This document shows, in pieces, positions 30,116 through 58,876 of a stretch of DNA of 64,000 nt. Location of the stretch: NCBI GenBank assembly GCA_950106755.1, contig OX467082.1, positions 12,090,001 to 12,154,000 of the forward strand, in the 5' to 3' direction. The notes under the pieces are model-generated. The model was not told where the DNA came from and did no database searches. It saw nothing but the letters and a program-made list of their open reading frames with translations. Made by a program: the position numbers and the translations under genes. How positions within the stretch are numbered: the stretch's first letter is position 1; each line of letters opens with the position of its first letter. The stretch comes from Climacium dendroides (lineage: Eukaryota > Streptophyta > Bryopsida > Hypnales > Climaciaceae).

Positions 30116-30565
30116 GGTCGTTTAGCATAGGAGACATGACTTTGAAATGCGCTTGGGCTTAACATCCTTCAATCCGTCCTATTCTTGGAGCAGGTGAACC
30201 ATTAATTTCAGCCTCAACAACTTGTTTTGGATTCCGACAAGTCAATGAAAGTAAGAGACCAAATTAAGAGCTCCACGGACTAAGATTTGGAAGAAACTTC
30301 ATGGAAGAGCATGTCCCATCGTTGTGGTAGAAAATGTTTCTCCTTACTTCTTCTAACACTTCAAACTACTTTGAACCAACATATACTTTAGGGTGTAAAA
30401 CAAAGACTCTAAATTCTTTGATTTAGGAAATGGTTAGAACACTTTGAGGAAATATTTTGGAAATGTTTTGGAAATGTTTAGGCAATATTTTGAAAATGTA
30501 TTGTACTCGATAAAATCATTATTTTGCTATTTTTCTTGCTTCATTAATTAGAGAAATTTTTCTAT
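30116..30565. other. Spacer within element A; nothing coding
   Basis: No credible coding sequence. It includes short repeats of TTTTGGAAATGTTT near 30450-30500 and leads into the degenerate array that follows. Confidence 0.5.
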
Positions 30566-34793: not shown

Positions 34794-36373
34794 TGACAAG
34801 GGAAGGGAGTGGATCGGCGGAGAAACGTCCCATATTCATAGATTTGGATGACGTCAGTGAGATGGTAATTCCATCCACGAATACATTGGTGGCCTCAAGT
34901 TCATCGAATCCTTCCTCATCGGGCCAAAAGAAGCGCAAGAAAGCACCCAATCCCCATATGCCTCCACACGAATTCATAGTTGAACGGAGAGCAATAGTTG
35001 TGGTGTTCTACACTCGTTGAAGTACAACTATGTTGACCAGGGAGTATGTGGTGCACAACAAAGAAGGATACCACAAATTGACGAGGGACCTGCGAAGGGA
35101 GATGGAGTCCAAATTTGAATCATCAGAGAAATTCAACAATTTCTCTGATTATTGGTTGCACCAAGACTGGCTGGATAAACAGGTGGTTGCCTTCACAACC
35201 AATATAGTGTCAAATTGGTGTTACCACACGGGGAAGAAAGAAGATGGTAGCAATTGGGACACGCAGAATAAAGAGGTGGTTGCAAAGTTGAAAATCATTC
35301 AAAACTTCTCTCAACAATTTTCTTCATCGCGTAAGAAAAAACAAGCACCATGGAAAGCGACAATAGAAGACGCCATAACGGCTCATTGTGTGAGTGGAAC
35401 ATTCAAGTGGCTTGAAAATACAGTGAAAGTCATCCCCATGCCGGACAATAGTGAGGTTGGTTCATATGGGACCGTGAGGAAGGTGATGCTTACAAAACTT
35501 GAGAGCATTCCTAGTTGGATATTTTTTGTTGGGAAGAGCTTGAAAACCACAAATGAGAAGGAGAAGCGCCAAGGAATCATCAATGAGGCGGGAGGGTGTC
35601 CAGTGATACATCCTGGCATCATTCGAATTGCGTACATCCACCCTAAAACGATGGAAGGCTATACCCTATGGTGGAATGGAGGATCTCTAATTTCTTTCTT
35701 ATCCAAGTACAATTCGAAAGTGAACGAATCAGTGGATGTGGATGACATTGAGTGTGAACAAGGTACGCTACTGACAAAAGAAGAGCTTGCATGGGTTGCA
35801 ACTTACCGAAGGAACCGAGTGAACTTGGCACTCTCCTTGCTTGTCATTGTGGGGAAATGCCACGATGTGCAGTACATGCATAACGACATAACTCCATCCA
35901 ATGTTTTGCTCCATTTTGATGATTGGAAAGAGCACAGGGTGTACATAGGGATATGTGATTGGGGACTTTCTAGCCGAGTTGTAGAGAAGGAGCCATCAAG
36001 GTATGGCTTTCCCAACATGGAGACCCTAGCGAAGGAAAAGAAAAAGCGAAAGTTTGCAGCCCCTGAGTTGTTTTATGTATACGGAGAGCAAGGTTCAGCT
36101 AATTCAATTGAGGCCATGCAAAAAACGCATTTGTACTCCATGGCAGCTGATGCATATGCGGCGGGATGGATAGCAGCTGCAATTTGGCAAGAAGAGTGGG
36201 ACCCCAAATACTTTACAACAAAGAATCCAGAGCAATATGTGAACCTCAGGATCAAATTGAGAAGCCTCATGAAAGATGATGTGAGTGAAAGGGCGACAGT
36301 GCAAGATGTTCTGGACACATTGAAAAAGGCCCCCCACTGTTGGACTATGCCAGATTGTTGTTATCGTACATAG
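34794..36373 (+). CDS. Protein kinase-like protein of element A (one in-frame TGA)
   Basis: The frame opens with MTREGSGSAEKRPIFIDLDD, continues through a Ser-rich basic linker, meets TGA at 35018-35020 and resumes in the same frame to TAG. The main open segment (35030-36373, 447 residues) has the kinase landmarks in order: glycine loop GSYGTVRKV (about residue 144), a candidate ATP lysine in FFVGKSLK, catalytic loop YMHNDITPSNVLL (Asp and Asn kept, usual HRD now HND), metal motif DWG in place of DFG, AAPELF for APE, and an F-helix like ADAYAAGWIAAAIW. All key catalytic positions appear present, so activity is plausible if the TGA is bypassed or absent in sister copies. The ~130 residues before the kinase domain are unfamiliar. 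It is probably captured host sequence; its substrate is unknown. Confidence 0.78.
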
Positions 36374-36745: not shown

Positions 36746-37632
36746 GAAGCCCCCCTCCAAAAGAAAGTAATTGATCCACCAAAAAAAAGAATGACATTGA
36801 AGTGGATTGGAATAATTTTAGTAATGAAAAAAATAAATAAAAGGATAGAGAATGATGGAACAAAAAAATAAGAATAATGGCTTTGAGTTCAGATGGAATA
36901 ACTTTAGTGAATTAGAAAAATAAAATAGGGAAGGGAAATAAAGCAGAACTATGAGTTCGAATAAAATAGTCTTCCTAATTAATGAACCAAAACAAAATAG
37001 AAATTGGAAATTTGGAATGTTAGAACATGAAAATTGTCCATTTCTTTCAAAAAAAAAATGTTCGAAAAGAAAAGAATAACTATGAGTTGGGATGGGAGAG
37101 TTTTAGGAATGAGGAAAAAAAAAAGAGAGAATGATCCGAACCGAAAAGAATGGCATAGAGTTGGGATGGGAAGAGCTTTGTTCATTAATGGAAAAAAAAT
37201 AGGAAAGGAAATGATGGAACAAATACAAAATGGATTGGGCTTGGGTTGGAACAATTTTGTGAGAGAGAGAAGCCCACAAAAAATAGTGTGTCAAAGTGAT
37301 TTCAACTAACACCCCAAAAAATTACCATTTAGTTCAAATAGAGTTGGGATACCACAAAAAATAAATGGAATTCACTTGGGATGAAAGAGTTTTGCTATGG
37401 AGCAAAAAATGAAAGGAATGGGAATGATCAACGAAAAAGAAATGGCCTCGGCTTGGGATGGAACAATTTTGCTAATCACGGAAAATAAAATAGGAAAAAA
37501 AAGTCATTCCACCCTACACAAGTGGCATTGAATTCAAATAAAAGACTTATGGTAATGATGCCAAAAAAATAGGAAAGAGAATGATTCCGCCCAAAAAATA
37601 ATGGCAATCACTTGGAATGGAAGTGTGCTTTA
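36746..37632 (-). repeat. Degenerate ~70-bp array, right copy (inverted)
   Basis: Units such as AATGATGGAACAAAA, AATGGCTTTGAGTTCAGATG, GGATGGGAGAGTTTTAGGAA and AAAATAGGAAAGG are the reverse complement of the units at 30.57-31.50 kb. Open frames here are chance readings. Confidence 0.8.
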
Positions 37633-38291: not shown

Positions 38292-41200
38292 TCCACCGTC
38301 CACCGCAGCAGAGAAGCCCACACTATGAGAACCACTATCCTTATGCTTCTTCTTGCGGATGCTTGGAGGAAGCTCGGAAGCGGAATGAGATCTCAACCGT
38401 TGATGAGGCGGCTTTGGCAACATCGTATCGTCATTGTTTATATACGGAAGACCAGATCCAGTTGATTTGGAGGCGAGAGATCGTCGTTGGTCTCTGATAA
38501 TCCTCTGACGGAAAAGTGAGTCCCTTGACAGCGACTGTCTACCTCCTCTAGATAAAGGAAGACGAGGATGATTATCCTCGACCCGAGGTAACTCAGGTGG
38601 AACTTACGGTTGCACTTGCTCACTCCGGAGGGAACCCCCAGATGCAAACCTGGTAACAGGTGGAGCCCACTGTCGGACCTGCTCACTCTTCATAGAACCC
38701 CGAGACGGAGATCTAGTATTCAGGTCTCTGAACAAAACGGGCGAATACGTTGGGGAGGCTGAAAGATCATCTTGGACTCGAGGATCCCCTGAGGATTCCC
38801 CCATAGGCAACTCCAGTTTTCTGTTCGTCGCTATCTCCGTCCGGGGAGTTGGCGAGAACGATCCCCCTCGTGTCGAGGATGTCCGCTTGAGCGGGGACGG
38901 TGAGCAGATAGGGATCCTCACCGGCCCTCGACTCGGGGGACTGTCCACCACACCGTCCTTGACGTCGCCCTTCGAGTAGTCTATGGCCGCAGACGTTGCG
39001 TCTGCCGCTGAGTGCAGTATGTATGGTTTGGAAATAGGCGCAGGACCGCAGCTCCCCCCAACCGAATTCGATCCATTTGACAGCGTTTTCTCCGACCCGG
39101 ACAAAAGACTCCTCGTCAACTTGCGCTTAGGAGAGGGTTGTTTTGCACTCGCTCTTCTCACGGTCTGCCGAAGCAAAGTTCATGGAAGTCCCCCACCCAT
39201 GACAACCCCATATTCAAAACAAGAGACACGAGAGAGTCCCACGAAAGCGTACCCAAATACGGTTGCCAAAATATATTTACACATTAATGTAGCATACAAG
39301 ATTATATAAAATACAAATTGTCAATCGAGTCCCAACGGCTTGGACGTGTTACTCTACGTCCTACGGCGGCCTCTCCCTATGACTAAATTCTCCAATGGCA
39401 AATTGTATCGCACCCCCATGTTCTGTGCGGATTCTTTCATGGCTTTCACAATCCGGTTGTGATCGTAGTCACGAGCGACAAGCGGTTTGAGACCAATGCG
39501 ATTGGCCTCCACGTATTCTCTCAATCTTCCCGGTTGGCAGTCCGAGATGAGCCGGCGGAGCCACGGTAGGAGGTCCCTCATGAGGACGTTGTCTCTCAGT
39601 TTCTCGTGATCCCAGGTTTTGAGAATCACGTTGTTCCCTCTCTCATTGCAAACCCCCTTCCAGAGGGAGTCATGATCAGGAGGGTGTTATCGGCATTGAA
39701 GGACGTGTCTCCGCTGGGATTAAGGAACAATGTCTCGGCTAGGACTTTCATCATCACCTGTCTTATTCCCAGGTGGAAATACTGTCCCGGAGAGCATTCT
39801 ATTTTTTTGCATTGATCTTGACTCAGTACATCAAACAGGGGCCTGCATCCGCTGAACAGATGTGCAGCTATGGGTTCCGTGTTCGTCTTGAACATGGAAC
39901 TCCACACGAGAACCCTGTTTGCAATGTACGAGGCCTCCTTGAGGAATTCCCCTACATTTTGGCGAGCAAAAACCGCTTTGGGTCCAATGATCGTGGGGTT
40001 CCTGTGGCATAGAACATTGTCTTCCACTTTGTAGGGCTGGAATCTATTATTGAGCCCATACGCCTTCGTGGCAACTTGGTAGAGCATGCCGTTCAAGTCG
40101 AAGACAATGTTCAGCCAGTTCTTCCTTGGTTGGGGCTCTACCGGTGCTATATTTCTAGGGACGACCTCTCTCGCGACCTTCAAACCTACCTGATCAATGC
40201 AAGACAACATAGAAATGGAGTTACCTGATTAAATGCAGATTCAGGTGAGCCAGACAACGGGAAGGAACACTCAAATCCACTAACTGGTTGCTTGCTCCCC
40301 TTAGGAAATGCTTTCATTGGCAGTGGGCAATGCACGCTTTTATGTTTTTTGAGCTGATCAAGAAAACATGGACAACAAAAGACAATTAGACTTGTAGTCC
40401 ATTTTCATATGGCAACTTGTACATTTTATTTACAAGTGAAAAATTTTGCATAGATGTTTCTTAGAATCTATCTAGTGCCGGGTAAATTGTACACTCATGT
40501 CTATGCTACACTAGTCTAGACGCACTGCAGCCACAGACGGGTTCGCCGTCCGCACCAAGCAATCAAGGAGTGGCCACGCCATCCTATCAAGCAGCAAGAA
40601 TACAAATGAGCATTTGCAGACCTACACAAAGACTTTGCCGCTGCCAGTCAAACAAGACAGCCATCTACCACTCCGCATACAAACTTATGAGTCAATCGAA
40701 ATCGTAGGGATCAGAGGGTTGTACCTGCGAAGACTCAATCCCATGCGGTTCATCCCCCACCTCTATCGGGACGGATGCGTCATGCCCCTCGCCCTCCAAG
40801 TCCTCTGGAACGTCTTTCTCGTTCTCTCCATAGTCCACCATTTCCTCTAAAGAAGTAGGCAACTGCAATGCATGAAGATCTTGCGCAAACGTCTGACAAT
40901 CCGGCTGCTCTAGAACTTGGGGCTCGTTGGTAGCCTCCGCACCAGAACCAGGCAGCTCTCTTTCTTCAGTGTTATCGTCGAGTCGACGATAACTCTCCTC
41001 CACCAAAGAGGTCTGCTGCGTCTCAGGGACCACAACCTCAAACCCCGCTTCATTGGGCGAGGACACTCTTTGCTGCTGGGATCCCTCCCCCTTATCGTCG
41101 ATTCGAGGATCCGGCAACCCAGACACCAACTTCTGGATATCCGCTGTCGCGGCATTGCTGGATGTGGATTTGGGAGGTTGTGGCTCTAATGCACTCCGAA

Positions 41201-43403
41201 GCGCCACTGGGAGTACTAGCGATCCGCCAGACTGGGATTGAATTGCGGCAAGGAGTTGGCTCAACTGGTTCTCCAAGTTGTAAATCTTAGCGTTGGACTC
41301 CGCCTACACGTTGTGGATTTTGGCATTGGAAGCTTGCGTGCTGGCGATAGCTTCCTTGAGTTCCCTCTCTTTCTCTTCCCTTGCCTACTGCCTTGCGATC
41401 CTCTGCCGCCTAGCCTCCTCCTGGTGAACCTACCAATCACCCTCGACTTTGATCGTGCCGTCAAGTCGGAGTATAGGCTTCGTGTTGGGCATGCCCTCCG
41501 CGTCGTCTTTGTTAGAGGAATGCGGTTTGTCAATTTCCTCATCGTCATTGATCACGATTATGCCGCCCGAGCTCTCTGACTTGGACGGTATCTTTTCAAG
41601 CGACGACTGCTTCTCCTGAGAAACCTCCATATTTTGTTCCTTCTCCGATTCAGGGACGCGCCTTCCCTTTGACGCTTTCTTCACCGATCCCTTTTCCTTC
41701 TTCTTTGATTGAGCACGCTGCTGCTCTTTGAACTCGGTGTCGGTTTCCATACCTTCATCCGCTACCACTGGTTGTGATCCAGCTGGCTCCTCATTTGAGC
41801 GGGGAAGCTGTTCTTCCATTGCAGCAAGCTCATCTTGCGCTGCAGTTGTCTCGTCTTGCGTTGCAGCTCGTTCTCCTTCCGCCACAACTGGCCCGACTTG
41901 CGTTAGAGCCGACACAGCAGAGGTGGACATCCACATATATACCTGAAATGTGTTTGTCCCGAACTGGTCGATGCCCTCCACGCCAGGATCACCGGTCAAC
42001 TGTGGACCAACAGACTCCGTTTCCCGCTGCTTGTTTGCGTTGACATCAGCCGGTGAATCAAATGAAGGTGGCGGCGACAGTGGTGAATTTGAATTCACCA
42101 CCACAGGCACGCGACTGGGTGGTCGGACGTATGCCACGGAGTAAGGTGAATTTGAAAACATGAAATCATTCTTGTCCATTTTATCCGCTAGGTAGGCAAT
42201 TCTATGGTAACCATTTCTCTCAACCCTGTCGTAGAACCCATAGAAATACGCCCCGAACATCTGAAACAAGATTCACATACATGAAAATTGAGTTAGTAAT
42301 TACACGAACGACAGTATCTTTGCCAGAATCACATCTACGTGGTTGTCCTCGGGTCGACGATAGGCCACCCTCCCACAACATACGTGAAACTACATACTAT
42401 GAAATTCAATTATATGCATAGTCTAGGAGGCTATGATTATCCTCGTGTCGAGGATAACTACTATAATGAGATAGTGACAAACCTTTGCCGCCAGCATGAA
42501 TTTAGGCCCACAGTATATGCCAAGTACGTTGTCGTCCGGCATCGCAAAATCTTGGAGGATCTGTAAGTAGAACTCCATCCTCAGTTCCGTCACGTGGATC
42601 CTCCACTTCACCTCGGTGTTCTTGGCGACTTCATTGTGGTATTGGCAATTGATAGGCGTTACATACTCACGCTTAACCAATCCACGAACAGAAGTCGCGA
42701 ACTCGTTGTCTTTCTTAAAGAGAAAAAGTAGAGGCACATCGTCAGCCATGTTCCGATTGGTGCAGTTATCTAGCATCTCTGCCTTGGCTGGGACATAATA
42801 CGACTGTTGGCAGTCATAGTCCTTCATCTTCTGCGCTGCAAATCTCATTGGAGCCTTCACGTCAGCCTTGTTGCGTAAAATGACGAGCCAAACGAGAGGC
42901 TCATTCATTTTTGGCTCAAGCTTCTCTAATAGAAACTTAAGAAGAGGGTCCACTTTTGCCAAATTATCGGTGGCCTTGCACCTTGGAGCCTCCCTCACAT
43001 CTAGAAGCGCGAGGTTGATCTCTCAATGCAGGTACTTGTACTTTGAGCTAGTCACCAACGCCTTTGCCAGAAAATCAATCCTCCTTACTTGCACACCCCT
43101 TGCTGGATCTGGCAGCTGGTACTTCAACTTCATGAAGGTACTGAACATGTGAGGAACCTCGGGAAAATTCTTCACGAGATCCTTTGCTCGCTTATCCTTC
43201 ACCTCGTTTTGAAGCCTTCTCTTGAAGTACTCATTCTTGGGGTGCGAAAGGAGAAAGTCCCAAGTCGCGGACGTAAACATGTGCCTTGCTTTCCATGACC
43301 GCCAGGTTGCGGTAATCACATCGCCCCCATTGTCAAGAAACTTCAGAGCAGGATTTATTGCAGCAAGGTCTTGGAGCATGTGAGTGCCCATTTGGTCACT
43401 CAT
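38292..43403 (-). pseudogene. Element B leftward gene 2: coiled-coil protein with FCP1/HAD-like domain, broken
   Basis: Starts with MSDQMGTHMLQDLAAINPAL at 43403. TGA at 43023, then exon to 42483; intron (GT-AG) to 42261 holding two palindromes; exon from 42260 (MFGAYFYGFYDRVERNGYHR) through an acidic, Gln/Glu-rich low-complexity region. Three in-frame TAGs (41430, 41385, 41304) interrupt a Gln/Arg-rich coiled coil; the exon ends at 40725. The exon from about 40192 has a HAD-like domain (WLNIVFDLNGMLYQV, VLVWSSMF, NTLLIM). The usual DxDGT nucleophile motif is DLNGM and the late acidic pair is missing, and a frameshift falls near 39.65 kb. The C-terminal part (39176 leftward) is Ser/Pro/Arg-rich with a basic SASELPPSIRKKKHKDSG stretch, cut at the element A end. 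The protein as a whole is unknown; the HAD call is by motif. Confidence 0.6.
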
Positions 43404-46400
43404 GATTCAGAATTGTTTTTTTGGGATTTTATAAAGTTTTGAGTGTAGTTTTATATACAAAAGGCCCAAAAAAGAGTGAATAACCAAAACGGAGATGTCA
43501 CATACCAATATGACTATTGGTCCTAATTGAGGCATTTTTTGTTATTTGTAACCAAATTCTGCATGTAGATAAGGTAGAAACCCAGAAATTGTACAAAATA
43601 ACCATGTTTAGTAGAAATTGTCCAACTTGTCTAAACCTGCCTTTTAGTGACAGATCCTAACCAAATTGGTCCAAGGGAACTATGTAAAAACCTTAGTATA
43701 GATTCCCAAAGAGAGGTTTCAGTTTTCCCATTCCATTGGCAAAATAGTAGAAACTCCAATTGTTAGCCTACAGGTGAAGAAAACTCAAGACGAATCATAG
43801 GAGGGCATCTACAACTTACATACGGTAGTTCGAAGTAGAAATCATGCCAGGAGTCCAAGGGAGCAATCGGCTCACCAAGATTCCCTTTTATTTGGAAGAT
43901 TCCTTTTTTATCGGAAGTTAAAGGAGATAGCAAGATTTGATTCTCCCTCCTTAGATGTGAAAAACGGGAATATGAGTTTGCACATCCCTTGTGAAATTCC
44001 ATGAGAGGTTCCATGAAAATTCTCGGTTTTTTCTGATCTTCAAAAGATCTTTTTCCGGGTAGTCAATCGTTGAAAGTAATGATGGGAAATTCCTAGAAAT
44101 TACCCAGACAGCGGTAAAATCTCACTAAAAATTAAGGTAGATTCTTTTATATTAATAACAAGCTCCAATAAGTTTCATGGCATTCCGATAGTCAGAAGAT
44201 GCAAAACCATCAAGATCCTCCAAAATTGACAAATTTAAAGATTAATCGTGGAGTTGATCGGCGTACGGGGAGCATACGAAATCAGATTAAGGTCAAAGTG
44301 GGGTCTTTTCTTACTCCCTTACACCTACTAAAGAGCCTAGGCTAGTTACTTTTCTAAGAAAAGTTGATCTCCAAAAGTTGGGTTTTTATCCAATTTTGGT
44401 CTTCTAGTTAGCGCTAGAAATCTTTGTGATTTTGACGTAGGAAAAAGGGGAGGGGATTTTTTAGACTAAAAATGGCCTTCTGAAGCCAATGGCGCAATCC
44501 GTTTGTAATTTGGAGCATTTCTCCAAAAGTTAGGAATTTGGACCAGCGTAGAAGTGAAAATTGGGCAAATCAGATGAAAATCTTAATTGATAAGATTACC
44601 TTGTAGGAAAAGAGAGGAGGGGGGTGCCCTTGGAAGAGTATATAAGGTCATCCATTCTCCTCTCAAAACACCCCTTAGGTTCATTTTGAACCGCTTTGTT
44701 TTCATTTGGATCCATTTAGTTGGATTTTGGCCATTTAGGCCACGTTGCCAAATTTCTTTGTTTTTGGAGCATTTCAAGCTCCTTTGTTGTTGTTTTTGGA
44801 GCTCTCTTGAAGGACTTGGGGTCCCTTCAAGCTTAGCTATCTTCTTGTGGCATTTCTTGTGGGTTATTTGAAGCTTGGGTGATGTTTTGTGGAGTTCTTG
44901 TATTTTGTTGACGTTTTGTAGGTGTTTTGAACTAACTTTATACTAATCTAGAGTCTCCTTCCCCTATGACTGGCGATGCCGCTTGGGAAAACTCTCTAGC
45001 GTCGTTTAAGTTATTTTAGCACTAACATTTGGTAGCTTATTGTTTACTTAGAAATCATTTCCCTTGTGGTTGTCCGTATTCTCCTTGTTTCTTGTATCAT
45101 GGCAAAGCTTTGACTTCGTGTGTTTTAAAGTCGGGAGTTTTGTTTAGGGATTTTGTTAAAACACGGCGGAGCCTTGACTTTGATTAAAAGAAGGTTATAG
45201 AATTGTTAGTGATTTCCCAAGAGACGGCGAAGCTTTGACTTTGATTAGAAGAAAATTATAGAATTTTTTTAGTGATTTCCTAAGAGACGGCGAAGCTTTG
45301 AAATTCTCCTTTCTTTTGATCATTCCTATGTAGTTAGGCCTTTTGGCTTTAGTTTGATCAAGTTGTCATTTTTAATATTAGTCTTTCTTTAGGGCCGAGA
45401 CCAAGGGTGTAGTCAGGCCGCTAAGAAGAAGGGTCAGTACAAATTGAAGTTCAAAATCTCATAGTAGAGGTCAAGAGCTTTCCAGAAACATAAAATACAA
45501 AGAAATCCGAGCTAAAATGAGTAAGATATAAGCAGATGAAGTTTCAGACACTAATTAAGACTCAAAACTTCATCCATGCATAACTTCTACTAGAAAAGTC
45601 CAATTTGCAAGTTCCACATCAACTTAGAAAGCTAGTTTTAGCCTCTACAAGGAAAACATATTAAAAGTCTAAAAATAGTAAGCTGTCAAAAGTCAACCGA
45701 GAGCTAAGGCATTTGATAAGGAAATTAGAAAATAGATTAGAAGAGAAGAAAGATAGATTAGAGAGGTGTGATTAGCAAGAAAGAATGCAAAACAAAGTTC
45801 TATCTCACCACTCTTTCAACTCTTCTAGCTTAGACTAAGTTTGAGTTCAAAAACTCAATAGGAATGATAGTTGTGAATTGAAAACCAAATTGTTAGATTG
45901 TTATAGTTGAAGTTGAAGAAGAAGGAGAAATCTCAAGTATCTAGAACAACCAATAGGATTGAGACACGAAGGGTGGACCATGTGAAATATCGCAAGGTGT
46001 CATTAGGCAAGCGAAAAATGGAAAAGTAGTGGTTAGGAGGTCAAGAGTTTTCTAAGCCAACCATTAGAAAAGTATAGTATAAAATCCCAAATAGAAGAAA
46101 GGAGGAATAGTAGCTAGAATAGTTGCAAATTTGTATTAAAAGTCTACTTTCAAGCGGTGAGCATAAATTACCGAGCGACATAACCATGGAGGAAAATGGA
46201 GATCCTGGAAGACTCATCTACAATGTCCAAGACGACTCACAAAGTGAGGTAAGATTCTAAATACCCAAATTACTATCAAATTGCAAAGTAGATGGTTTTA
46301 AATACCTTAGCCGAACTAACCTTTCAAGTCAGAATATTAAAACTAGATTTTTTCCCAAGTTTTAGATTCAGATTGTGATACCTTTAATTTAGAGGTTTCC

Positions 46401-46865
46401 AAAAATGTCTCACACTTAGAAATCCAACGAAAAATGAAAAAGATAGAGACGGATGAACCGATGAAGTTTAAGGGTCAAAATGAATGAAAGTTAAATAAAT
46501 CATCTAAAGTCAACCATATTAGAAAGTCAAATAGTAAATAGAGTTCAGAGACCAAAAGTCAAATCTCAAGTAAAATTATAAGGTAGATTAGTAGAAATCA
46601 ATGGATGAAGTTTGATGAACCAATTAGCTGTCAAACTTCATCCTTCCATAACTATTGTTAGAAAGCTCGGATGAGGACGAGTTTTATATTTTTAGAAATG
46701 GCATAACATGTTCTATCACTTAAAAATGATAAATATAGACTGAATTCATTTTGAATAAAAACCACATTGGCTTAGTTAGTTGAGATAAAAGGGTAAAACT
46801 TACAGTTATTTAGAATTTCTTGTTGTTTTGTTTATTTTTCACATATAAAAGTTAAAAAAGATCCA
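43404..46865. other. Spacer between element B leftward genes; possible old insertion
   Basis: No palindromes and no credible gene for 3.4 kb, unlike the DNA on either side, so an insertion is possible. At 44630-44680 a promoter-like AGTATATAAGGTCATCCATT precedes a leader, and CCTTCCCCTATGACTGGCGA follows near 44960. A ~68-bp tandem (GACGGCGAAGCTTTGACTTT, 45164-45302) is present. Terminal repeats proving an LTR element were not found. Confidence 0.4.
45164..45302. repeat. Two to three tandem ~68-bp units
   Basis: ACGGCGRAGCYTTGACTTTGATTAR, AGAAR.TTATAGAATT and TAGTGATTTCCYAAGAG recur with high identity. Confidence 0.8.
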
Positions 46866-46914
46866 TTGCTTAGAAGGCAAAATGTATTGACGCTAGGCAC
46901 CCTTAAGACAAAAC

Positions 46915-49071
46915 TTACAAAACAATACAAAGAACCTGGTTGTGCAACGCTAGTTTACCATGGGTGGGTAAAAAAGTGCTCACAAAGCACGACTTTTTTG
47001 CGCTTTCTACGCTCAACCCGGTCGCCCGCTGCCATATTGTCTGCCACGAGAATTCTAGTTTTGGACACGGACAACTTGGGATATGCAGCTCTGCGATTTG
47101 GTGTTTTGTTGAGGAGGTGCTATACAAATACCGCGAAGTCTGTGTCCGTGAAGTGGCCACAATGTCTGAAGAACTCTCGCTTTAGCGACATGGACTTTCT
47201 TTTAAAGCCCTTCAGGTCTTTGTAAAATTTCCCTGAAATTGGCTCGATGAGCTCGCCTTCGTTGTGCTTTGTGAGGAAGGTCTTCCAGAACGCGAAGAGA
47301 TCGTCTCGCAAGGTGATTATTTGGATTTCATTTTGTAGGTCCGATAGACCCTTTACAGACGCACCATCCTTTTTAGAATTGATGCTCTGGTACCTATCTA
47401 CAACTACGTCCATGAAACTTTGCACGATAATAAATTATTTGTTAATACAATTGAAAAGAACAAGAGTACATGAAATTGATCGAATCCTCGACTCGACGAT
47501 ACTCAAGCAAATTCAGTAGAGTAGCAATTTGATTGTGGACGTAGTATATGGACTTACACTCAACAAATGTTTAATTCTAATTCTATCTATTGGTAATTGA
47601 AACGATATCATCGACTCGAAGATAGTCGAGTGGTACATTTTCTCACCTTGTACTTAATGAGATTGTAGACGGCCTTGTTATGTCGGACCGCATCCTCGTT
47701 GGCGATATTGGTAGTGCGCTTGCAAGAGAGCCAGATATTGCGACAATTGATAATCTGATTTCCCCATGTGGGTTGGGCGTGATCAAGATGATTGGTGCAG
47801 TTGTAGAACCTGGAGATATTCCTTAACTTGTTGGGATCTAGAGTCCACACAATCAAAGCATCCCACGTCTGAAGTTCTACCCTTCTGGCTTCTCCGCAGC
47901 CTGCCTTCTGAAGCTCCTTGGCTGCCGTAATGCTATGCTAACCGTTTATTATCATAAATTGGCCAGTCTCTATCTCCTCCCACTTCGTCGGCTTTTTCTT
48001 TAAGAATTGATTATCCAAGCCGATGGAAGTGAGGCAAACTTTCTGCCGTTGTTTGATGTCCCCAAGTTGGACAAGTTCATTCTTCACTGACTCTACAATA
48101 TCCCTCTGCAGAGTTCGAATGATGTACTGGTCCCGCGCAAGAATGCACTGCTTAATATGCACTTTCACAATCTCTTCACCCAAAATGAAGTAGGACTTGT
48201 GTTCGGCCCAGAAGTTTCTTTGTATTATGGCGAACTTCTCGTAATCTTCTATTGGAGCGTCTGATGTCGTTGGCGTTGCCTCGAATATAGTCAGAGCTGA
48301 TCCGGAGCTTCCTGCACCCACTTGGCCACTGGCGAGATTTGATTTTCGCCTCTTCCTACTGGACTAGTTCGTCTCGGTCGGAGGAGGATCTCGCTTCCTT
48401 GGCTCTGATCTTGCTTGACCGGGTCGTGTTCCCCGATTGCCGTCACCAGAACGAGGAGGAGGTGGATTGGGTCCAACATCTGATAGTGCCTTCGTATCCT
48501 TAGGTTGACTCCCTCCCACCGCCGGTGCAAGCACACAATTAGCCATTGTATAATGGTCGAGCGTTTGCCATATCCAGCGAAGTCTACTGGCGTTCAACTT
48601 TGCAGTTTTGTTTATCCAGGGGCCGTATCCACATTTTTGAAACTCAACAATCAGCGAATCCATTTCGGACCCCTCCAAGAATGTCATCAAGTTGTCAAGG
48701 TCGAACTTTGCATGGTACGCATTCACATCGATTACTAGTGAATGAGTATGTTCGCCTGGCTTCCCTACCTCGTCCACATCACAAAGGGTTATGACGACGT
48801 AGTTTTCCAGGTAGTCGTCGATGAGGATCACCTTCTCCTTCATATTCCATGGAAAATATTGCATGTTTCTTTGGGCTCGGTATCGTAAGTACATATAATT
48901 TTTCCATCGACTGACCCCAAAACTCCAGGTACTTATGTGCTCCTTAAAACGCCACAGTTTTCCATACGTAGCCTCCAAGTCTTCATACAGCGGATCTCCT
49001 AGAGAAGGGTGTTCAAAGGCTTCAATGTGGCTCTCGGTCACTGAGTAGTTGTAGTCATCTACAGCAGCCAT
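46915..49071 (-). pseudogene. Element B leftward gene 1: unknown protein, in-frame stops
   Basis: The best start is the ATG at 49071 (MAAVDDYNYSVTESHIEAFE), preceded by an acceptor-like TGCAG, so a 5' UTR intron is likely. The first segment (to 48364) has LWRFKEHISTWSFGVSRWKN, VVITLCDVDEVGKPGEHTHS and GYGPWINKTAKLNASRLRW, then a Pro/Arg-rich linker. TAG at 48364 precedes SSRKRRKSN, a possible nuclear signal. The next segment contains YEKFAIIQRNFWAEHKSYFI; TAG at 47938 precedes KELQKAGCGEARRVELQTWD and NISRFYNCTNHLDHAQPTWG. An intron of ~220 bases carrying two palindromes leads to FMDVVVDRYQSINSKK and FKRKSMSLKREFFRHC, with TAG at 47120 and a tail to about 46.9 kb. No known family is recognised. 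Its position and shared palindromes tie it to gene 2 and the rightward transposase candidate. Confidence 0.5.
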
Positions 49072-49122
49072 TTCTTTTCTCCTGCACATGCATTTTGTAT
49101 TCACAGTTATGCCACAGTTCTG

Positions 49123-49863
49123 TTATCGTCGAGTCGACGATATGGGTAAAGTAAGATTCTATGTTATTGTGATCGATATTTCATGAGGTGCTCTTGTATT
49201 GTAATTATTTGGAAGTGTTCTTTGCGTTTGTTTATTGGCTTTGGCATTTGTCTCATTTGTGGATATCCTCGATTCGAGGATACTGTTTTCTAAATTGCAT
49301 ATTCTCGACTCAAAGATTTTGATTTTTGAAATGGTTGTGCTGTTGACTGGTGGTGGACTCAGGTTTTTTGTTTCTTTACTTTGTTTTCATTTACTATACT
49401 AGGTAAATTATATTGATTGTAGCTTCGAGTTCATGGTTACAATATAATACTATTTATCTTCGACTCGAGGATACCTGGTGGGCCTGGTGGGTCTATTTAT
49501 CTCCGACTCGAGGATCATTTATTGTTATGTGCTGTAGTTTGTTACTCAGGTTATATTTTTTTGGTCTTCCGCATTCGATTTTCTGTCATCCATTTATTTA
49601 TTATCATATTTGGTTTTCAAATATCGTCGGGTCGACGATAATTATTTGCTTCTGCTCTTGATATTATAGTTTATGGTCTGTCATTGGTTTTGAATTTGTT
49701 TCGTTTAGATAGTGGAATTGATCTAGTCGTCTTATTTTGCGTTATCTTCGATTCGACGATTACTTCATGAAAATTGGAGACAAAGTTGAATCACGGATGG
49801 AAATAGTGATTTGGGGAGATTGGATTCAGTTATTTTTGTTGGTTATCCTCGAGTTGAGGATAA
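49123..49863. promoter_or_regulatory. Cluster of eight palindromes upstream of element B gene 1
   Basis: TATCnTCGnnTCGAnGATA copies lie at 49123-49142 (TATCGTCGAGTCGACGATA, perfect arms), 49264-49282, 49300-49317 (weak), 49454-49473, 49497-49515, 49622-49640, 49742-49760 and 49843-49863, spaced 40-140 bases. The cluster begins about 50 bases upstream of the start codon. It occupies either the promoter or a 5' UTR intron. Confidence 0.75.
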
Positions 49864-50233
49864 ACCTTGGTTAGGGTTTGCTGCCAAATCAGTATTCAGT
49901 TTTTCTAAACCTAAACCATAGACCATATAGAAATTGTTTTAAACCTACTACAAAGGAAAACCTCACAAGAACTCTAAGAATCATACATGTAGGAACTGAA
50001 GAAGAAGGATTGGAAACGAGAAGCATTGTGAACCTAAACCCTAAGCCCTTGGCCATTCCAACAAGGTAAACAAAGGAGGAGATGTAAAAAACAGAATTTC
50101 AATTGAAGTTCAAAAAATTGAATAACTTGTGATGTTGGAGATGAACATTGCCAGTGTTGTGGAATGACACGTACAGTTGTCACTTCCAACGTCACCAAAA
50201 CATAAATTTGTACTCCCCACCACAACTAAAAAC

Positions 50234-50505
50234 ACTACTAGTCTCTGCACAACAACAACTGATTTCCCAAAATAAGTGAAGTGCGCCTTCTGCAGAAACC
50301 CAGCAAAAACACACACGCCAACAACAACAAGAACATACACGGGAGAGAGAATGCACGCCACAACTACAAACAGTACTAGTCTCTGCACAACAACTGATTT
50401 CCCACAATAAGTGAAGTGCGCCTTCTGCAGAAACCAGCAGAAACACATACAGCAGCAACAACAAGAACACACACGGAAGAGAGAACGCACGCCAACAAGA
50501 ACACA
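50234..50505. repeat. Tandem duplication, ~138-bp unit
   Basis: Both units read ACTAGTCTCTGCACAACAAC, TGATTTCCCA.AATAAGTGAA and GTGCGCCTTCTGCAGAAACC, then ACACAC/CAACAACAA-rich sequence. The Cys/Leu-rich leftward open frames at 50.1-50.66 kb arise from this low-complexity DNA and are not annotated as a gene. Confidence 0.8.
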
Positions 50506-50509
50506 CACG

Positions 50510-51720
50510 CCAACAACAACACACACAAGAGAAGTGGCACGTACCAAGGACGATGCTGGAGAAGTGCTGTAAGGTAAGCAATGCAAGGGAAGCGCCGCAA
50601 GGGAAAAGAGACTCACAATCCGCCAAAATTTTGCTCAGAGAAACCCTAGCTACTGCAACCACAAGCGCCCAAGAAACTACTCACTTAAACCGCAATAACC
50701 TCCTCCCCATCAGAACTAAACCCCCAATACATTCTAAAACCTACAAAATTGACAGCAACAGAAGATCAATATAAGACAATCGTAGCTTCAACAGCAGCGA
50801 TGTCCCTCCACAGCGGAACCGAACCTCCGAAATGAAAAGGCAGCCACAGGGTTCTGGGGTTCCGCCCAAGCCTAAGCAACCTCTTGCTCGCCCAAAAAAA
50901 TTAAAAGAGCCCCCTATATTGAACTAATTTTCAGAATTTCTGCACTCCCAGGAAGTAATTTGGGGCCTCTAATTGCAAATATGAGTTTAGAATTTTTTTT
51001 TTAAAATTTACGTAAAAAATAAAAAAATTTCAGTGTTTTCTACGGGCAAGGGCAGGCAGGCGTTTTGGCAAATGCTTCTGGGACTCCGTGTAGATTTCAT
51101 TTTTGAATGGTGTGTCATGAAAATTTTATTGTGGGGTGAAGAATTTTCTTTTAATGTTGTGGATGAGAATAAATTTAGTTCGGTACAAAAAATATCCAAT
51201 GAAACTTTACTTTTTGATAAAAAAAGTCAAAAAATATAAACTTTTATTTAGGAATGGAGCTTCATACATTCATTTTATTTATGATATCTTATTTAGAACT
51301 ATGATATTATAAGAAAAACTAGTTCTAATTCCTAAATTCCTAAAGTCATTTGGTGTTATAGGATCAAAAATTTTCCTAAGTATTTTACTAATGCTTGCTT
51401 TAAAATCTTTTTCTATTAAAAACAAATTCTAGTAGATTTAATAATAGAATTTTTAGGTATTTGTTCATTCAAGTATATCTTTCTAAAATTTAAGAATAAA
51501 AATTTATCATATATTGCAAGATCTAAATTATTGAATTTCATAAATAAACATTTTTCAAGCCTTTTATCAAAAGTAGAGTTTTACCTCTTAAACCATTTTG
51601 TTCCAAAAGCATGCATTATTTCATTAGGTCTTAGTAATCTTCAAGTTGTACTTCTTTCTACATTTACATATTCAAGAGCCATTTATGAAATTTCAAATTT
51701 GAAGAGCCATTTATCAAATA
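50510..51720. other. Gene-free spacer
   Basis: No supported coding sequence or palindromes. It becomes AT-rich after 51.0 kb. Confidence 0.5.
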
Positions 51721-52440
51721 GGTAGAATTTATAAATAGCACCCTCATGTGAAATCCATGACCTTCACATCGAATCACCAATTTGTTTCACTAGTGCATGC
51801 ATTCCAAAATAATTAGACCCACACTGGATTTTAAAAATACCCTAGAAAATAAACATGAAACTCATGAAAATAATGTGGAATTGAGAAGGAAAAATATAGG
51901 TAGAAGTTGTAAATAGCACCCTCACGTGAAATCCATGACCTTCACATCGAATCACCAATTTGTTTCACTAGTGCATGCATTCCAAAATAATTAGACCCAC
52001 ACTGGATTTTAAAAATACCCTAGAAAAAAAACATGAAACTCATGAAAATAATGTGGAATTGAGAAGGAAAAAAATAGATAGAAGTTGTAAATAGCACTCT
52101 CATGTGAAATCCATGACCTTCACATCGAATCACCAATTTGTTTTTCTAGTGCATGCATTCCAAAATAATTAGACGCACACTGGATTTTAAAAATACCCTA
52201 GAAAAAAAACATGAAACTCATGAAAATAATGTGGAATTGAGAAGGAAAAAAATAGGTAGAGGTTGTAAATAGCACCCTCATGTGAAATCCATGACCTTCA
52301 CATCGAATCACCAATTTGTTTTTCTAGTGCATGCATTCCAAAATAATTAGACGCACACTAAATTTTAAGAATACCCCGGAAAAAAAACATGAAACTCATG
52401 AAAATAATGTGGAATTGAGAGGAAAAAAAATAGGTAGAAG
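51721..52440. repeat. Four tandem 178-bp units
   Basis: Units begin at 51721, 51899, 52077 and 52255 with GGTAGAAGTTGTAAATAGCA or close variants, and a partial fifth starts at 52433. The period is exactly 178 in each step, and the first three units differ at only a few positions, so the array is young. Contents: TTCACATCGAATCACCAATT, GCATGCATTCCAAAATAATT, AAAATACCCTAGAAAA. Confidence 0.95.
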
Positions 52441-53545
52441 TTATAAACTTCTACTTATCTAATTTTGAAATGGTTTGGTTGTTTTCTCTTTTATGATTTT
52501 GGGTGGTGTACATTTTGAGCTAAATTTTTGAGTAGTCTATATTATAAAATTAAAATTACTAGAACTTACAACTTTGCTTTAAAAGGTTCAAAACGGAAGA
52601 CTCTGGGTACCTAAGTACAGCACAAGAAATTTTGGTTTATAATTCACTTCTTCTACAAAAATCTTGCAATGCACGTGGATAAACATATGATCGTAGTCTC
52701 TAAAAAAAATTTTATACATTCTCCAACTTATATAGTTTAACTACATACGTTTACAAATGACAAAACAAAATCATTTCAAAAGTTTTCTGATTCTCGCAGT
52801 AGGAATGGCATTTTGAAAACTCATATGATAAAAAAAACTCCGTAAATCTTAAAGTGTCAAATACTTTAGGACCAAGTGGCCCACTACCTACAGCACAATG
52901 TTTGCACGTGACTCAAAAAATACACCCTTGAAAACCCTAACCGCAAACCCTAAACCCTTAACCCCCCCAACCATATCCTAAGAATCTGAAGCCTACAGCT
53001 CGAAATCCTATAGGCTGAACATGTCACCAAGTACGTCGCCGTAATTTATTCAGAAAAGGATGCCACTTTACAGTCGTCATTGCAAAACGACAAACCTTCT
53101 ACCAAAGTCAATGAAATTTGGAAATAGCCAACGTAAACGGGCGGAATTTTTCTTAGGCGTCATTTTTAGCACCACTTTTTAGCCCATAGCCCTGTAATAG
53201 TGCACTCAAGAATAGGAGGCATTTCTTCAGTAATTTGAGGAGCCATTAATATGCCAATATTTTACGGAAATTTCAAATTCTGAAATGCCCGCGCTCATCT
53301 TTCCCGTCCTTCGTACAAAAGATTCCTGCCCCATTCTTCTTGTTGCTCCGTCGACCTCGAAGTACAACCATGACATTCGATTTTCTCTCACCATTTGTTG
53401 GTTCGTCACTTGCGCACATCACTCCTCCATCTTCTTTGCCGAGAGCTTATCGTTGTTCCTTTCCAAGTTGGTTCAGGGCGACGAGAGCTTCTGAGTTTCA
53501 AACGTCATTATTGATTGTGAACCGCATAAGTTCTGTCAGGCTCTG
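52441..53545. other. Spacer and probable 5' leader of the rightward element B genes
   Basis: A telomere-like tract (AAACCCTAAACCCTTAACCC) lies at about 52941-52965. A GC-richer segment at 53.28-53.55 kb ends in a good splice donor, CTCTGTAAGT at about 53541-53550, and may be a 5' UTR exon. No confident open frame. Confidence 0.4.
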
Positions 53546-53770
53546 TAAGTTTGAGGTACACATTGTATCCTCTTCTTCTTTCTAGCTTTTCAGAGACCTT
53601 GTAAGTACACTTCTGTTCATTCCAGCTCAATCGACATGTACATGTGAGTTCATGGACTTCTATTTTGTAAGGAGACGTTGTTGTGTTAGCCATCATTTAG
53701 TCTTCGGAATGAATCTTTCGAAATATGCGGTGAAATATTCGGAAACATTCTCACTGTATATTTGTGAGGT

Positions 53771-54665
53771 CATCGTCGACTCGACGATAACTCCTTTCTA
53801 GTAATTACTGTTTGATGTTCATCACCCGTTTTACAGTAATTGTGGTTCACAGAATGATTCGGAGGTTATCATCGATTCGAATATAAATATATTCCAACGT
53901 ACTGTCTTATCAATATCATCAATTCGATGATAATTAGGTTCACAATGTTTTTGTGAGTTTATCATCGGTTCGACGATAATCCTTTACCAATATACTATTT
54001 TATCTATATCATCGAATTGATGACAATTGTGGTTCACAAAGTCTTTGGCAGGTTATCATTGATTCGACGATACAAAGTTTCGAACAAATTCTTTTATCTG
54101 TATCATCGAATCGACGATAATTGTGGGTCACAAAATGTTCAAGGATTATCATCGGTTCGACGACAATCATTTTCCAATGTACTGTGATTTAATGTTATTG
54201 ACGACTTGATGATTATACTTTCTATCAGAGGTATTATTGACTGTAGTATTTTCTAATATTCATAGATGTTTTGATTGTCCCTGGTTTCGAATTATGACGT
54301 CAAATTATTTATCGTCGAGTCGATGATGTTGTATCTGAGCATTCAATGGGTTTAAGTACTTGTGATTGAATTTTGGAAAATGAAATTTAGTTCGAAGTCA
54401 TTGATGTAGCCCTGTCTTTATCCTCGACTCGACAATAAGGGATTTAATTCACACATGGTTGTCTATGACGTGGTTTTGGATATTGTGTTTTTCTTCAATC
54501 CCTCTTTTTGAAATCCTGGCTGATATTTTGAAGTGCTGTGAAGTATGTCCTATCTTTGAATCATCATTTTGAAAAGCTATCATGCAAAGTTTGATTATGG
54601 TATGTAACGAATTTCTTGTTTTGCAGTTAATATTGATAATAACCTTATCGTCGAGTCGAGGATAA
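53771..54665. promoter_or_regulatory. Cluster of twelve palindromes upstream of the rightward genes
   Basis: Copies at 53771-53789, 53866-53886, 53914-53932, 53959-53979, 54007-54025, 54053-54072, 54101-54119, 54146-54166, 54195-54216 (weak), 54309-54329, 54418-54438 and 54645-54665. In 53.86-54.17 kb they recur about every 47 bases. A donor-like CTCTGTAAGT near 53541 and an acceptor TTCTTGTTTTGCAG at about 54613-54626 suggest that most lie in a 5' UTR intron, with the last copy in the leader 11 bases before the ATG at 54676. Confidence 0.8.
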
Positions 54666-54675
54666 GGCTTTCATC

Positions 54676-55068
54676 ATGCAGTTCTTTGCGAGAAGAATGA
54701 ATATTCATTGCCCTGATGAGTTCGCTGTTCCACTGCCCGTATTACCTCCTGATGTTGCTATCTGCGACGGGTTATCTCGACAATCTTGGATTACCAGGGG
54801 TGTCACCCTCAGAAACGAATCTGGCAATGACGTTGCCAAAGGAGTTTGCCAGAGTGTTGACGTGGATCTGGTCATCGACGAGGATGGAAAACCCTTGGGT
54901 GAAGAACGTGTCGCCATTCAAATTGCACAATCATTATGCGAGGCAGAAGTTCCGTCAGGTTGGATGTGGGCATTGCATTCATGGCACATTAAACAAGTGT
55001 TCTTGGACGGTGTTAGTTTGTATGACCATTACCAAACACATAATCACATATTTACAATATGGCTATGA
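54676..55068 (+). CDS. Element B rightward small protein or first exon, unknown function
   Basis: 130 residues beginning MQFFARRMNIHCPDEFAVPL, with SVDVDLVIDEDGKPLGEERV and AIQIAQSLCEAEVPSGWMWA. No family recognised. Its start follows a palindrome and an acceptor-like site. Its last codons overlap the next frame's ATG by 10 bases in a different frame. It could therefore be a separate protein or a 5' exon spliced to the next frame; no clear short intron could be assigned. Confidence 0.5.
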   Translation: MQFFARRMNIHCPDEFAVPLPVLPPDVAICDGLSRQSWITRGVTLRNESGNDVAKGVCQSVDVDLVIDEDGKPLGEERVAIQIAQSLCEAEVPSGWMWALHSWHIKQVFLDGVSLYDHYQTHNHIFTIWL

Positions 55069-57578
55069 ATGCATCGAACCGTCGCGTTCGGTTTGGAGTA
55101 CGTTCTTATGAAACCTCTCAAGAGAAAAGGGATGTAGTCTTGCCTCCCAAAAAAGAATCCCTTTTGAATGCACAGTCAATTATTGAGGTGTCCACCAAAC
55201 CATGTTGTCAGAAGAATTGCTTGCAACATTTTCCGCGCCATGAAATCGAAGCGATACATTCTGAATTGCATGTGAATGGTGGAGTGTATATCCGCAAGCA
55301 TGTCCTTCTTGAAGCACATAGGCAAAAGCACAAAGATACAGCTGGGAAAGAATGGATAACTTTGAAGAATATGGAAGTGTGTCTTCTTGCTTGGTGGAAC
55401 ATCCACGGGATCTCCAAAGCTACCTTCTACAGGTATAAGGCCATGGCCAAAGATGGGAAGCAAGTAGAGGTACATGGGAATGTGGGACTGAAGAAACCAT
55501 GCCTGCAAACTATACAAGCTACTGCCACGCTTCGGATGTTGATTGTTGGTGACGCCGACGAAATGCCACACAAAACAAGAACATTGCATTCAGGGGAAAA
55601 AATCCCTGCAATGGTTTTTCCATCAGCGTTTCGTTGGAGTGAGCAATTGCCAAAAATTAACGAGGCCAATGCAAAATTCAATTTGCCTCCAATTTCCTCT
55701 AATGGTTTGAGAAACATCCGTCGTGCTTCTTTCCCTGAATACGCTGCAAAGGCTCGTGGAGACACTTTTGCAAGATCTGGCCTATGCGATACGTATAAGC
55801 AATTGAGGAATGCTTGCACTCCGATGTCTAGTGCGCAAGACAAGTGGGGCCGAATTTTGAGTACACACCTTTCAGAACAAAAGGCACATAGGCAACTCTA
55901 TTATTCAAATCGGTATATTTCAGAGACATACCCTGAGAAGATGCTTTGCATCATCCATGATAAAATGGATCACTCCAAGACTGCTTCTCCTCACTTCTCT
56001 CACAAGACAAAAGCGACGGATTCATATATGAAAATGCCCGTTGCAGTGATAGGTATGATTGCTCACGGTCATGGCGACGTTCGGTATGCTCACTATGGCT
56101 TAGAGATTTTTCCCACGGACTCGAATCATACCATTGGGTCCATTGCAAAGTTGTTGCGTGATCTCGAAAATCCGCCAAAGAATTCATCGCGCATATTATT
56201 TTCTGCAAAAAATGGCCAATCTACTTTAACTCGAGCGCTGTTAGAGGGTTCAGATATTTGTGTAGATTCCCTCCTTCCTCCACAAGATGAACCTCTTCCA
56301 GCTAAATCTCTACCGCCCATATTGACTCTACAGTTGGACAATGCGTCAGGGGACAATAAGAATCGATGGGTTTTTGCTTTTTGTTCTCTACTTGTGTTCA
56401 AAGGCATTTTCCGCGAAATATACATCAACTTCCTCATTGTTGGCCACATTCATGAAGACATTGATGCCCTTTTCGGTCGTTGGAGTACGCAGTTGAAGAG
56501 CAAGGATTATCCAACACTTCCGAAGCTCATGAAATCCTTTATGGATTGTGAATCCCACCCCATCATTCCTCATTTTATTGAGGAAGTTCCTGATTTCAAG
56601 TGTTTTGTGCAAGGCTATTTGGGCACAGGTGGGGATTTCTTGGAAGGTCATTCAAAATCCCAACAATTCAAGTTCCACTTGGATTCAAGTAGATGGCCGT
56701 TGATGGAGTACAAGAATTTGTGTACAGAGAAGAATTGGTTGCCAGATCACAGCAAAGGAATTCGCTTATGGTCTGAGACTGAAGATGGGCGTCCTCTCGT
56801 GCTAAGCGGTAGTCCACCACCTCTACCTCCACAGCAGATGAAATCGTTTGGTGAGATCAAAAAGGGTTTAGACAGTTTCATTGCACATTGGACCAAAATG
56901 GCGAACAATGAAGACTCTGGATCATTCAGACTCAAGAATGATCCCATCAAAGATTATTGGAAGGGTGTTAGAAGCGCTCTCGATGAACCTCTAGTTGTAC
57001 GTCAGACATTGAAGGATGGATTTTGGCTAGTTTCTAGGATCAGGGAGGAACCGGAAGACACAAGGCAACAGGATGGCACATTGGGAGAACAATTTGCAGA
57101 GGATCCACCCTTCGTAGGTCATAGACGTGACCGCCCACGTCCTTCCTTTCGAGTTCATCGTGATGTTTTTGCAAGTTATTTTGTCATAGTGCGTCCTGCC
57201 GATGAGGACCCAAAGCCCTTCTAGCCTGCTAGAGCGCTTACAAATCCGAATCCAGATCCTGGCTATATTCATCAGATCCAAATCCAATATTGGACGCCTG
57301 TTTCAAGTCGTCACATTGATATGGATACATATGCTAGATGGGACACAAGAGCAGGGAATGTTTGGTGCGAGGACCGTGTAATTCCTCTGTGTTGGTCAAA
57401 CACTGATTGTATCATGACAGCTTTTAAGGCGCGTGGCAAAAAAGGGGCCCAAGATCAACCTCAAATTCTTACAAAAGTTACAATTCCCAAACCACAGATC
57501 GACATCATCAAATCATCGGTTGCAGCCTTCGAATCTAATTCCAATGACAATGCGTCTATGGTTGAAAGCGAGGAATAG
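55059..57578 (+). CDS. DUF7869-like putative transposase of element B (one in-frame TAG)
   Basis: Opens MAMNASNRRVRFGVRSYETS and runs 721 residues to TAG at 57222-57224, then continues in the same frame as a further ~118 residues (DMDTYARWDTRAGNVWCEDR) to 57578. Features: a Cys/His cluster CCQKNCLQHFPRHE (about residue 49), a helix-turn-helix-like NIHGISKATFYRYKAMAK (about 114-131), and an RNase H-like core with acidic residues in IIHDKMDHSK (Asp about 301), ILTLQLDNASGDNKNRW (Asp about 427) and VGHIHEDIDALFGRW (about 461-475). This spacing and the LDNA..GDN and GHIHEDIDA motifs fit the DUF7869 group seen in many eukaryotic repeat-encoded proteins. The Asp/Glu triad suggests a DDE-type nuclease, which is inference. 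It is the longest intact frame in the window and the best candidate to act on the palindromes. Confidence 0.7.
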
Positions 57579-58439: not shown

Positions 58440-58876
58440 TTGTTCTTTCTTGTGCTACGACAACGGCGAATGTTACTTCCCTCGCACATTTTGTTTTGGC
58501 GGACGATTGCGAGAGAACAACAGCGGTCGACGAGCTCTAAATCAATTGGAAATGTACGTCCGTATATAAACAATGTCGATATGCCACGGCCGACACCTCG
58601 AGGATCGAGGTCCATGTCTTCCTCCGAATTACCTCCACGCAAGCGTCAAGCAAAGCACAAGGACAATACCTCTCCAAGTATGGATCTCAGCAGTGGTGCG
58701 CAATATTCAAGTGCATCGTACTATTCCTCACGACGTGAGGATATTTATAGAGGCATGGCAAGGCTAAAGGCGTTGGAGGTGGCCAAGAACAATTGTATAG
58801 GCCACAAATGACGTTTGGTCAAGCCGATTCAATTTTGGACGCCATGGGCGTCAAATTGCCTAAACCCTATAAATAA
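58440..58876 (+). pseudogene. Fragment related to the C-terminus of element B gene 2
   Basis: Reads VRPYINNVDMPRPTPRGSRS then MSSSELPPRKRQAKHKDN. This parallels YINNDD...LPKPP, SASELPPSIRKKKHKDSG in gene 2 near 38.3-38.46 kb on the opposite strand; DNA similarity extends over ~130 bases, including CCGTATATAAACAATG. Beyond the point where gene 2 is truncated, this copy continues with a Ser/Tyr-rich stretch and, after a frame change, FGQADSILDAMGVKLPKPYK and TAA at 58874. It therefore shows what the missing tail of gene 2 may look like. Confidence 0.55.

Follow-up and report, generated by a model that had tools for sequence, protein, structure and literature searches.

Within the 64-kb window (the whole stretch of DNA analysed), a 19-bp palindrome recurs inside a broken, moss-like mobile element that carries two divergent genes, gene A on the minus strand and gene B on the plus strand. 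We give a probability of about one half to the reading that this palindrome is a private, VANC-like site through which a dimeric protein, most likely of element origin, acts on the element's own genes. The clusters near both gene starts, the intron sites, the lack of lone exact half-sites and the conservation of the letters together argue for a dimeric reader that recognises the duplex. Such a protein, which the element itself most likely encodes, would bind the putative 19-bp site; the clusters upstream of genes A and B, probably located in 5'-leader introns, and the single copies in downstream introns would recruit it to the element's transcription units, where it may counter host silencing or drive transcription. 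We infer the protein nature of the reader, its action on DNA, its origin from the element and its role.

The palindrome and its distribution in the window

Scanning the window with the pattern TATCnTCGnnTCGAnGATA and allowing up to 3 mismatches returned 27 places, equal to 54 strand matches, all located between 38,573 and 54,664, against a chance level of 1.04 strand matches on average and 6 at most in 100 dinucleotide shuffles. The remainder of the 64-kb window, its host-like genes among it, yielded no palindrome with up to 3 mismatches, which bears out the claim of the initial annotation that some 27 copies are confined to 38.6-54.7 kb. A stricter pattern with up to 5 mismatches added two weak copies, at 38,863 (5 mismatches) and 54,196 (4 mismatches), bringing the total to 29 places. 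The unit, previously given as about 20 bp, is refined here to a palindrome of 19 bp (TATCnTCGA-n-TCGAnGATA), in which two 9-bp arms flank one free central base and positions 5 and 15 are also variable. Across 28 aligned window copies, 13 of the 16 fixed positions show the consensus letter in 25 to 28 copies, and positions 1, 9 and 19 show it in 24, 22 and 21 copies, respectively. Outside the palindromes the window contains no exact half-site (3.2 expected) and 26 half-sites with one mismatch (64.8 expected), both expected values coming from mononucleotide shuffles, in which CpG depletion is disregarded.

The region from 38 to 58 kb gave no Rfam match at gathering thresholds, and a literature search for the TCGAGTCGA form of the motif, the only form searched, together with 'palindrom' returned no plant paper as judged by titles. 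Among viral contigs, 39 stretches each contained one exact motif match at a single place, which were taken as chance; no relatives of genes A and B were found among these contigs.

The coordinates of the palindromes and of the genes that surround them are collected in Table 1. Of the 29 places, 24 are either upstream of genes A and B or within their introns, two lie in coding sequence, and three are weak and uncertain in setting. The clusters described earlier as lying just upstream of both divergent coding blocks were recovered (eight copies for gene A; eleven, plus the weak copy at 54,196, for gene B), as were the additional ones, two in each intron of gene A and two in the coding sequence of exon 3. 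Since coding potential stays high around both exon 3 copies, a strictly intron-only distribution is ruled out. The copies from 53,867 to 54,147 upstream of gene B form an array with a spacing of 46-47 bp, repeats being detected around 53.8-54.2 kb, and this array probably grew by tandem duplication. On the 5' side of gene B, candidate splice donors at 53,601 and 53,644 and an AG located 17 nt past the last palindrome suggest a 5'-leader intron. By analogy with a related contig described below, the cluster upstream of gene A is likewise supposed to lie in a 5'-leader intron; the candidate donors upstream of this gene score low.

Table 1. Palindromes, genes and neighbouring features of the element (positions in the window).
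Feature	Position	Strand	Remarks
Three weak palindrome-like sites, membership uncertain	38573..38881	.	38573, 38768, 38863; 3-5 mismatches
FCP1/NIF-like reading frames, link to the element uncertain	39354..40228	-	broken; NIF E 0.0058, 16.8 bits where the curated cut-off is 21.8
Gene A, second part	40692..43403	-	remainder of exon 2 (to 42483), intron 2 42482-42261, exon 3 42260-40692; in-frame stops, broken
Palindrome in gene A exon 3, coding sequence	40973..40991	-	pattern match and coding potential
Palindrome in gene A exon 3, coding sequence	41093..41111	-	pattern match and coding potential
Second palindrome in gene A intron 2	42344..42362	-	relative P0125 likewise has two
Palindrome in gene A intron 2	42438..42456	-	26 nt past the 5' splice site
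Interruption of gene A exon 2, about 3.6 kb, ends approximate	43390..46985	.	absent from 10 exon-2 relatives; palindrome-free
Gene A, first part	46955..49071	-	exon 1 49071-47647, intron 1 about 47646-47420, start of exon 2; in-frame stops, broken
Second palindrome in gene A intron 1	47483..47501	-	relative P0139 likewise has two
Palindrome in gene A intron 1	47606..47624	-	22 nt past the 5' splice site
Eight palindromes upstream of gene A	49124..49862	.	49124, 49264, 49300, 49455, 49498, 49622, 49743, 49844
Twelve palindromes upstream of gene B	53771..54664	.	53771, 53867, 53914, 53960, 54007, 54054, 54101, 54147, 54196 (weak), 54310, 54419, 54646
Gene B, DUF7869 protein	54697..57578	+	frameshift near 55.05 kb, in-frame stop 57222-57224

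The element and its surroundings

Gene A, on the minus strand, extends from 49,071 to 40,692, with two introns and several in-frame stops, mostly TAG. In a low-confidence structure model, a domain near the end of its exon 2 resembles the N6-adenine-methyltransferase fold. For the parts of gene A and their relatives, Pfam gave no family with a useful E-value (0.09, 0.032 and 0.043 at best) and no methyltransferase family. When compared by hhalign with eight proteins, exon 2 scored best with E. coli YhdJ, on the expected motif (E 0.12, probability 0.5%); the best match in a PDB profile search was PRMT7 (E 1.1), and sequence profiles do not place exon 2 among the beta-class N6/N4 DNA methyltransferases. 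Exon 2 is interrupted by an extra stretch of some 3.6 kb, in which a seed search found no terminal repeats. The exon-2 relatives read straight through this spot, so that the stretch is probably a later, nested insertion.

The full-length relatives of gene B are about 940-990 aa long. DUF7869 is the sole Pfam match of this gene; its structure model has a pLDDT of 64 and gave no match at E 0.001 in a structure search, and no mention of DUF7869 was found in the literature searched. Based on conserved acidic residues, a transposase would be our guess for the DUF7869 protein. Between 37.5-40.7 kb and 57.6-60 kb no convincing terminal repeats were found that could mark the ends of the element.

Several other features were observed in and around this region. 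Tandem repeats of 178 bp, without palindromes, occupy 51,716-52,549 between the divergent genes. Inverted stretches at 38,301-38,472 and 58,535-58,698 are about 70% alike and translate into similar peptides. Diverged inverted repeats (30,558-31,400 and 36,759-37,626) flank kinase-like (35,030-36,373) and RING-like (32,459-33,046) reading frames, possibly as another element. A reading frame with a hAT dimerisation domain is located at 25,844-27,388, and a DUF4218 frame, which we take to be CACTA-type, at 61,065.

Position of the palindrome in related elements

The named relatives of the gene B protein come from the mosses Ceratodon and Physcomitrium, which makes the host probably a moss; most relatives derive from metagenome contigs. 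For gene A, 40 proteins related to exon 1 (33-67% identical to the window's) and 10 related to exon 2 (47-69% identical) were collected, while the protein search found none for exon 3. If equal contig sizes are taken to mean the same contig, genes A and B sit together in relatives as well (P0137/P0124/P0006, 46,150 bases; P0144 and P0013, 460,842; P0129 and P0108/P0118, 493,283).

Nearly all relatives are protein sequences, DNA having been seen for one of them (L040). Many are bare, unspliced reading frames that run past the splice donor, making the intron readable as peptide, and a tail was considered readable with 12 or more residues past the donor. Out of the 40 exon-1 relatives, 11 had no tail, 8 had tails that were too short and P0154, whose end was unaligned, was set aside, leaving 20; for P0133, P0135, P0136 and P0148, where the script started the tail a few residues early, the donor position was set by eye. 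A palindrome follows the intron 1 donor in 15 of these 20 relatives (15 of 21 if P0154 is counted as a miss), the exceptions being P0149, P0151, P0156, P0161 and P0164. Ten of the 15 were recognised by pattern and five by eye (P0132, P0135, P0136, P0137 and P0150), P0136 reading SSSR before a stop. Four of the ten exon-2 relatives had tails that were too short, and in all six readable ones a palindrome follows the intron 2 donor (five by pattern, P0124 by eye).

In 13 of the 15 exon-1 relatives the palindrome lies 17-24 nt past the donor (32 and 80 nt in the other two), and in five of the six exon-2 relatives 15-27 nt past it (89 nt in P0121, for its good copy), compared with 22 and 26 nt for introns 1 and 2 in the window. 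The palindrome is spelled in three frames in the exon-1 relatives (YRRLDD or YPRLED; ILDSRI; SSGRR and similar), which means that the conserved thing is not the peptide, and the peptides between donor and palindrome appear mutually unlike by eye. Among the 15 positive exon-1 proteins the pairwise identity has a median of 49%, with three pairs at 76-84%; they are 37-67% identical to exon 1 of the window, and the six exon-2 positives 55-69% to its exon 2. As the same intron place is shared by most of these distant readable relatives, the palindrome is probably kept by selection in the family. The motif was also seen directly 5' of the start of the gene B relative P0003 and at the 5' ends of the gene A relatives P0143 and P0145, the latter copy read by eye. 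A control with patterns of this type on P0001-P0120 picked up the 5' copy of P0003 and, in P0097, a single unrelated spot.

A scan of a genome collection yielded the 4.2-kb contig L040, which encodes gene A and stops inside exon 2. Its unbroken exon 1 (P0158, which together with L040 counts as one relative) is 37% identical to that of the window. L040 contains five palindromes, all of the C form and with at most one mismatch (10 strand matches versus 0.13 expected). Based on predicted splice sites, four lie between the best-scoring donor (1,390) and the start-codon acceptor, and one lies 21 nt into intron 1, which measures 124 nt versus about 227 nt in the window. The contig, moss-like and intron-bearing, is filed in the cyanobacterial bin AVDCRST_MAG81 (CADCWO010000074.1), a likely contamination.

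Candidate readers and comparison with known systems

The protein-site reading draws on the privacy of the palindrome in the window, the absence of lone exact half-sites and the conservation of its place in relatives. Against it stand the 15-27 nt donor spacing in most relatives, which a DNA-binding role would not predict, the two copies in coding sequence and the intron 1 motif missing from 5 of 20 readable relatives. The CpGs of the palindrome core, of which 51 out of 58 are retained in the 29 palindromes, can be set against observed/expected CpG ratios, with palindromes masked, of 0.55 and 0.69 in the flanks of the clusters, 0.63 between the genes, 0.55 in the interruption and 0.72-0.87 in the coding parts, the last values indicating that CpG loss was not uniform. 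This retention at the sites of a broken copy counts in favour of the protein-site reading in that it fits lower methylation, but it could simply reflect late decay.

The nearly constant donor spacing, maintained although the size of intron 1 differs, points rather to RNA. The palindrome could fold in the pre-mRNA into an 8-bp hairpin with a three-base loop, some 22 nt past the 5' splice site and in the leader introns, serving an RNA-binding protein or the tuning of splicing, an explanation that we regard as less likely. It agrees with the folding of the five L040 copies on their own at -9.8 to -17.6 kcal/mol and with an intronic location of 24 of the 29 window places if both leader introns are real. 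The letters themselves, however, are conserved more than a hairpin requires, and 8 of 25 window copies fold at only -0.5 to -3.9 kcal/mol, albeit in a broken element copy. The resolved asymmetric pairs in relatives (G-G, A-G, C-C and C-T) break the stem in its middle, and none is G-U, although G-Y reads could hide one. Furthermore, two copies are exonic, the leader introns are predictions, and the spacing may be inherited.

Pairing was also approached through arm symmetry, said by the initial annotation to be kept while the base varies. In the decayed window copy this holds weakly, with positions 5 and 15 exactly complementary in 11 of 28 palindromes versus 7.5 expected (shuffle P 0.09), or in 9 of 21 versus 7.4 without the seven tandem-array copies (P 0.29). 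A second scoring, by purine/pyrimidine, was chosen since position 15 is not fully determined by codons, and it followed the exact test with its P of 0.09; it gave 20 of 28 in the window versus 14.1 expected (P 0.03) and, for the copies that could be read in relatives, 15 of 20 (P 0.05). Taken together, 35 of 48 versus 24.1 expected (P 0.002, which is no true probability since the sequences are related) make the effect moderate once relatives are included. Six frame-c copies with an unreadable position 5 and possible extra copies at the ends of P0123 and P0138 were left out of this count, to which three proteins contributed two copies each. Complementarity of the bases that flank the core also exceeds the shuffled level, in L040 at 14 of 20 versus 10.0 (P 0.03, or P 0.10 for positions 2-4 taken alone) and in the window at 43 of 112 versus 34.5 (P 0.04). 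These symmetry effects are moderate, come from related sequences, and could be explained by palindrome-perfecting mutation as well as by selection for pairing. Many of the A/T variants are presumably the CpG decay products expected of the G form.

It is unlikely, in our estimation, that an element protein with the methyltransferase fold reads the palindrome about 22 nt past the splice donors, on the pre-mRNA or during transcription, as a form of intron-based self-recognition. We find it improbable, too, that a host transcription factor binds the palindrome and that the element keeps it as a promoter or enhancer: copies do lie upstream of both genes, and the TATC/GATA ends resemble GATA-factor sites, but the inner letters are conserved at least as well as the ends, host-like genes and the rest of the window lack the palindrome at up to 3 mismatches, and further copies sit in both gene A introns and within coding sequence. 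A tiny self-spreading palindrome favouring the element, proposed earlier as one option and suggested by the abundance of similar short palindromes, including the two in coding sequence, is very unlikely, as distant relatives carry the motif at the same places and it is missing from the rest of the window and from the 3.6-kb interruption.

The protein-site reading has its closest counterpart in the VANDAL elements, which encode a VANC protein and a Mutator-like transposase. VANC is an anti-silencing protein whose binding causes loss of DNA methylation. According to the available parts of two papers on Arabidopsis, the VANC21 motif is YAGTATTAY (PMC5735166; PMC10398659), VANC targets carry tandem repeats (PMC5735166) and these targets diverge rapidly (PMC10398659). 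As far as those parts go, VANC motifs are likewise short, enriched in one element family and mainly non-coding, including introns and upstream regions, and they occur in two letter variants (C-type and T-type) and were built up by tandem repeat formation. The present motif is confined to its element within the 64-kb window and shows the same type of location, and the repeats in the gene B cluster as well as the privacy resemble VANC targets as portrayed in the available part of PMC5735166. In contrast, VANC motifs there comprise 8-9 bases in same-orientation arrays, and the word palindrome is absent from the available part of PMC5735166. The present motif is a 19-bp palindrome kept at a nearly constant distance from splice donors among proteins 37-69% identical to the window's, whereas VANC targets diverge fast, which counts against a VANC-like reading. 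The gene content differs as well, gene B encoding a DUF7869 protein and gene A, which has no Pfam family, a methyltransferase-like one according to the low-confidence model.

CACTA (En/Spm) elements also possess many copies of a short site, namely the subterminal repeats bound by the element protein TnpA. Such CACTA subterminal repeats are mentioned in the available part of PMC2613891; they are located at the two ends of the element, whereas the present palindromes lie between and inside the genes of an element whose ends were not found. Introners, which create new introns (PMC9860276, as far as available), likewise tie a repeated sequence to introns, but the introns described here are common to relatives and the repeat is a 19-bp island with exonic copies too.

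Sequence-specific self-recognition by transposons has been described for the Arabidopsis VANDALs (PMC5735166 and PMC10398659, in their available parts). If the protein-site reading is true, the palindrome would represent a counterpart in an apparent moss lineage, palindromic in its site and retained across strongly diverged relatives, with a methyltransferase-like partner gene and a nearly constant place in introns, and such systems would be older and more varied; the 19-bp site provides a ready bait for the putative binding protein.
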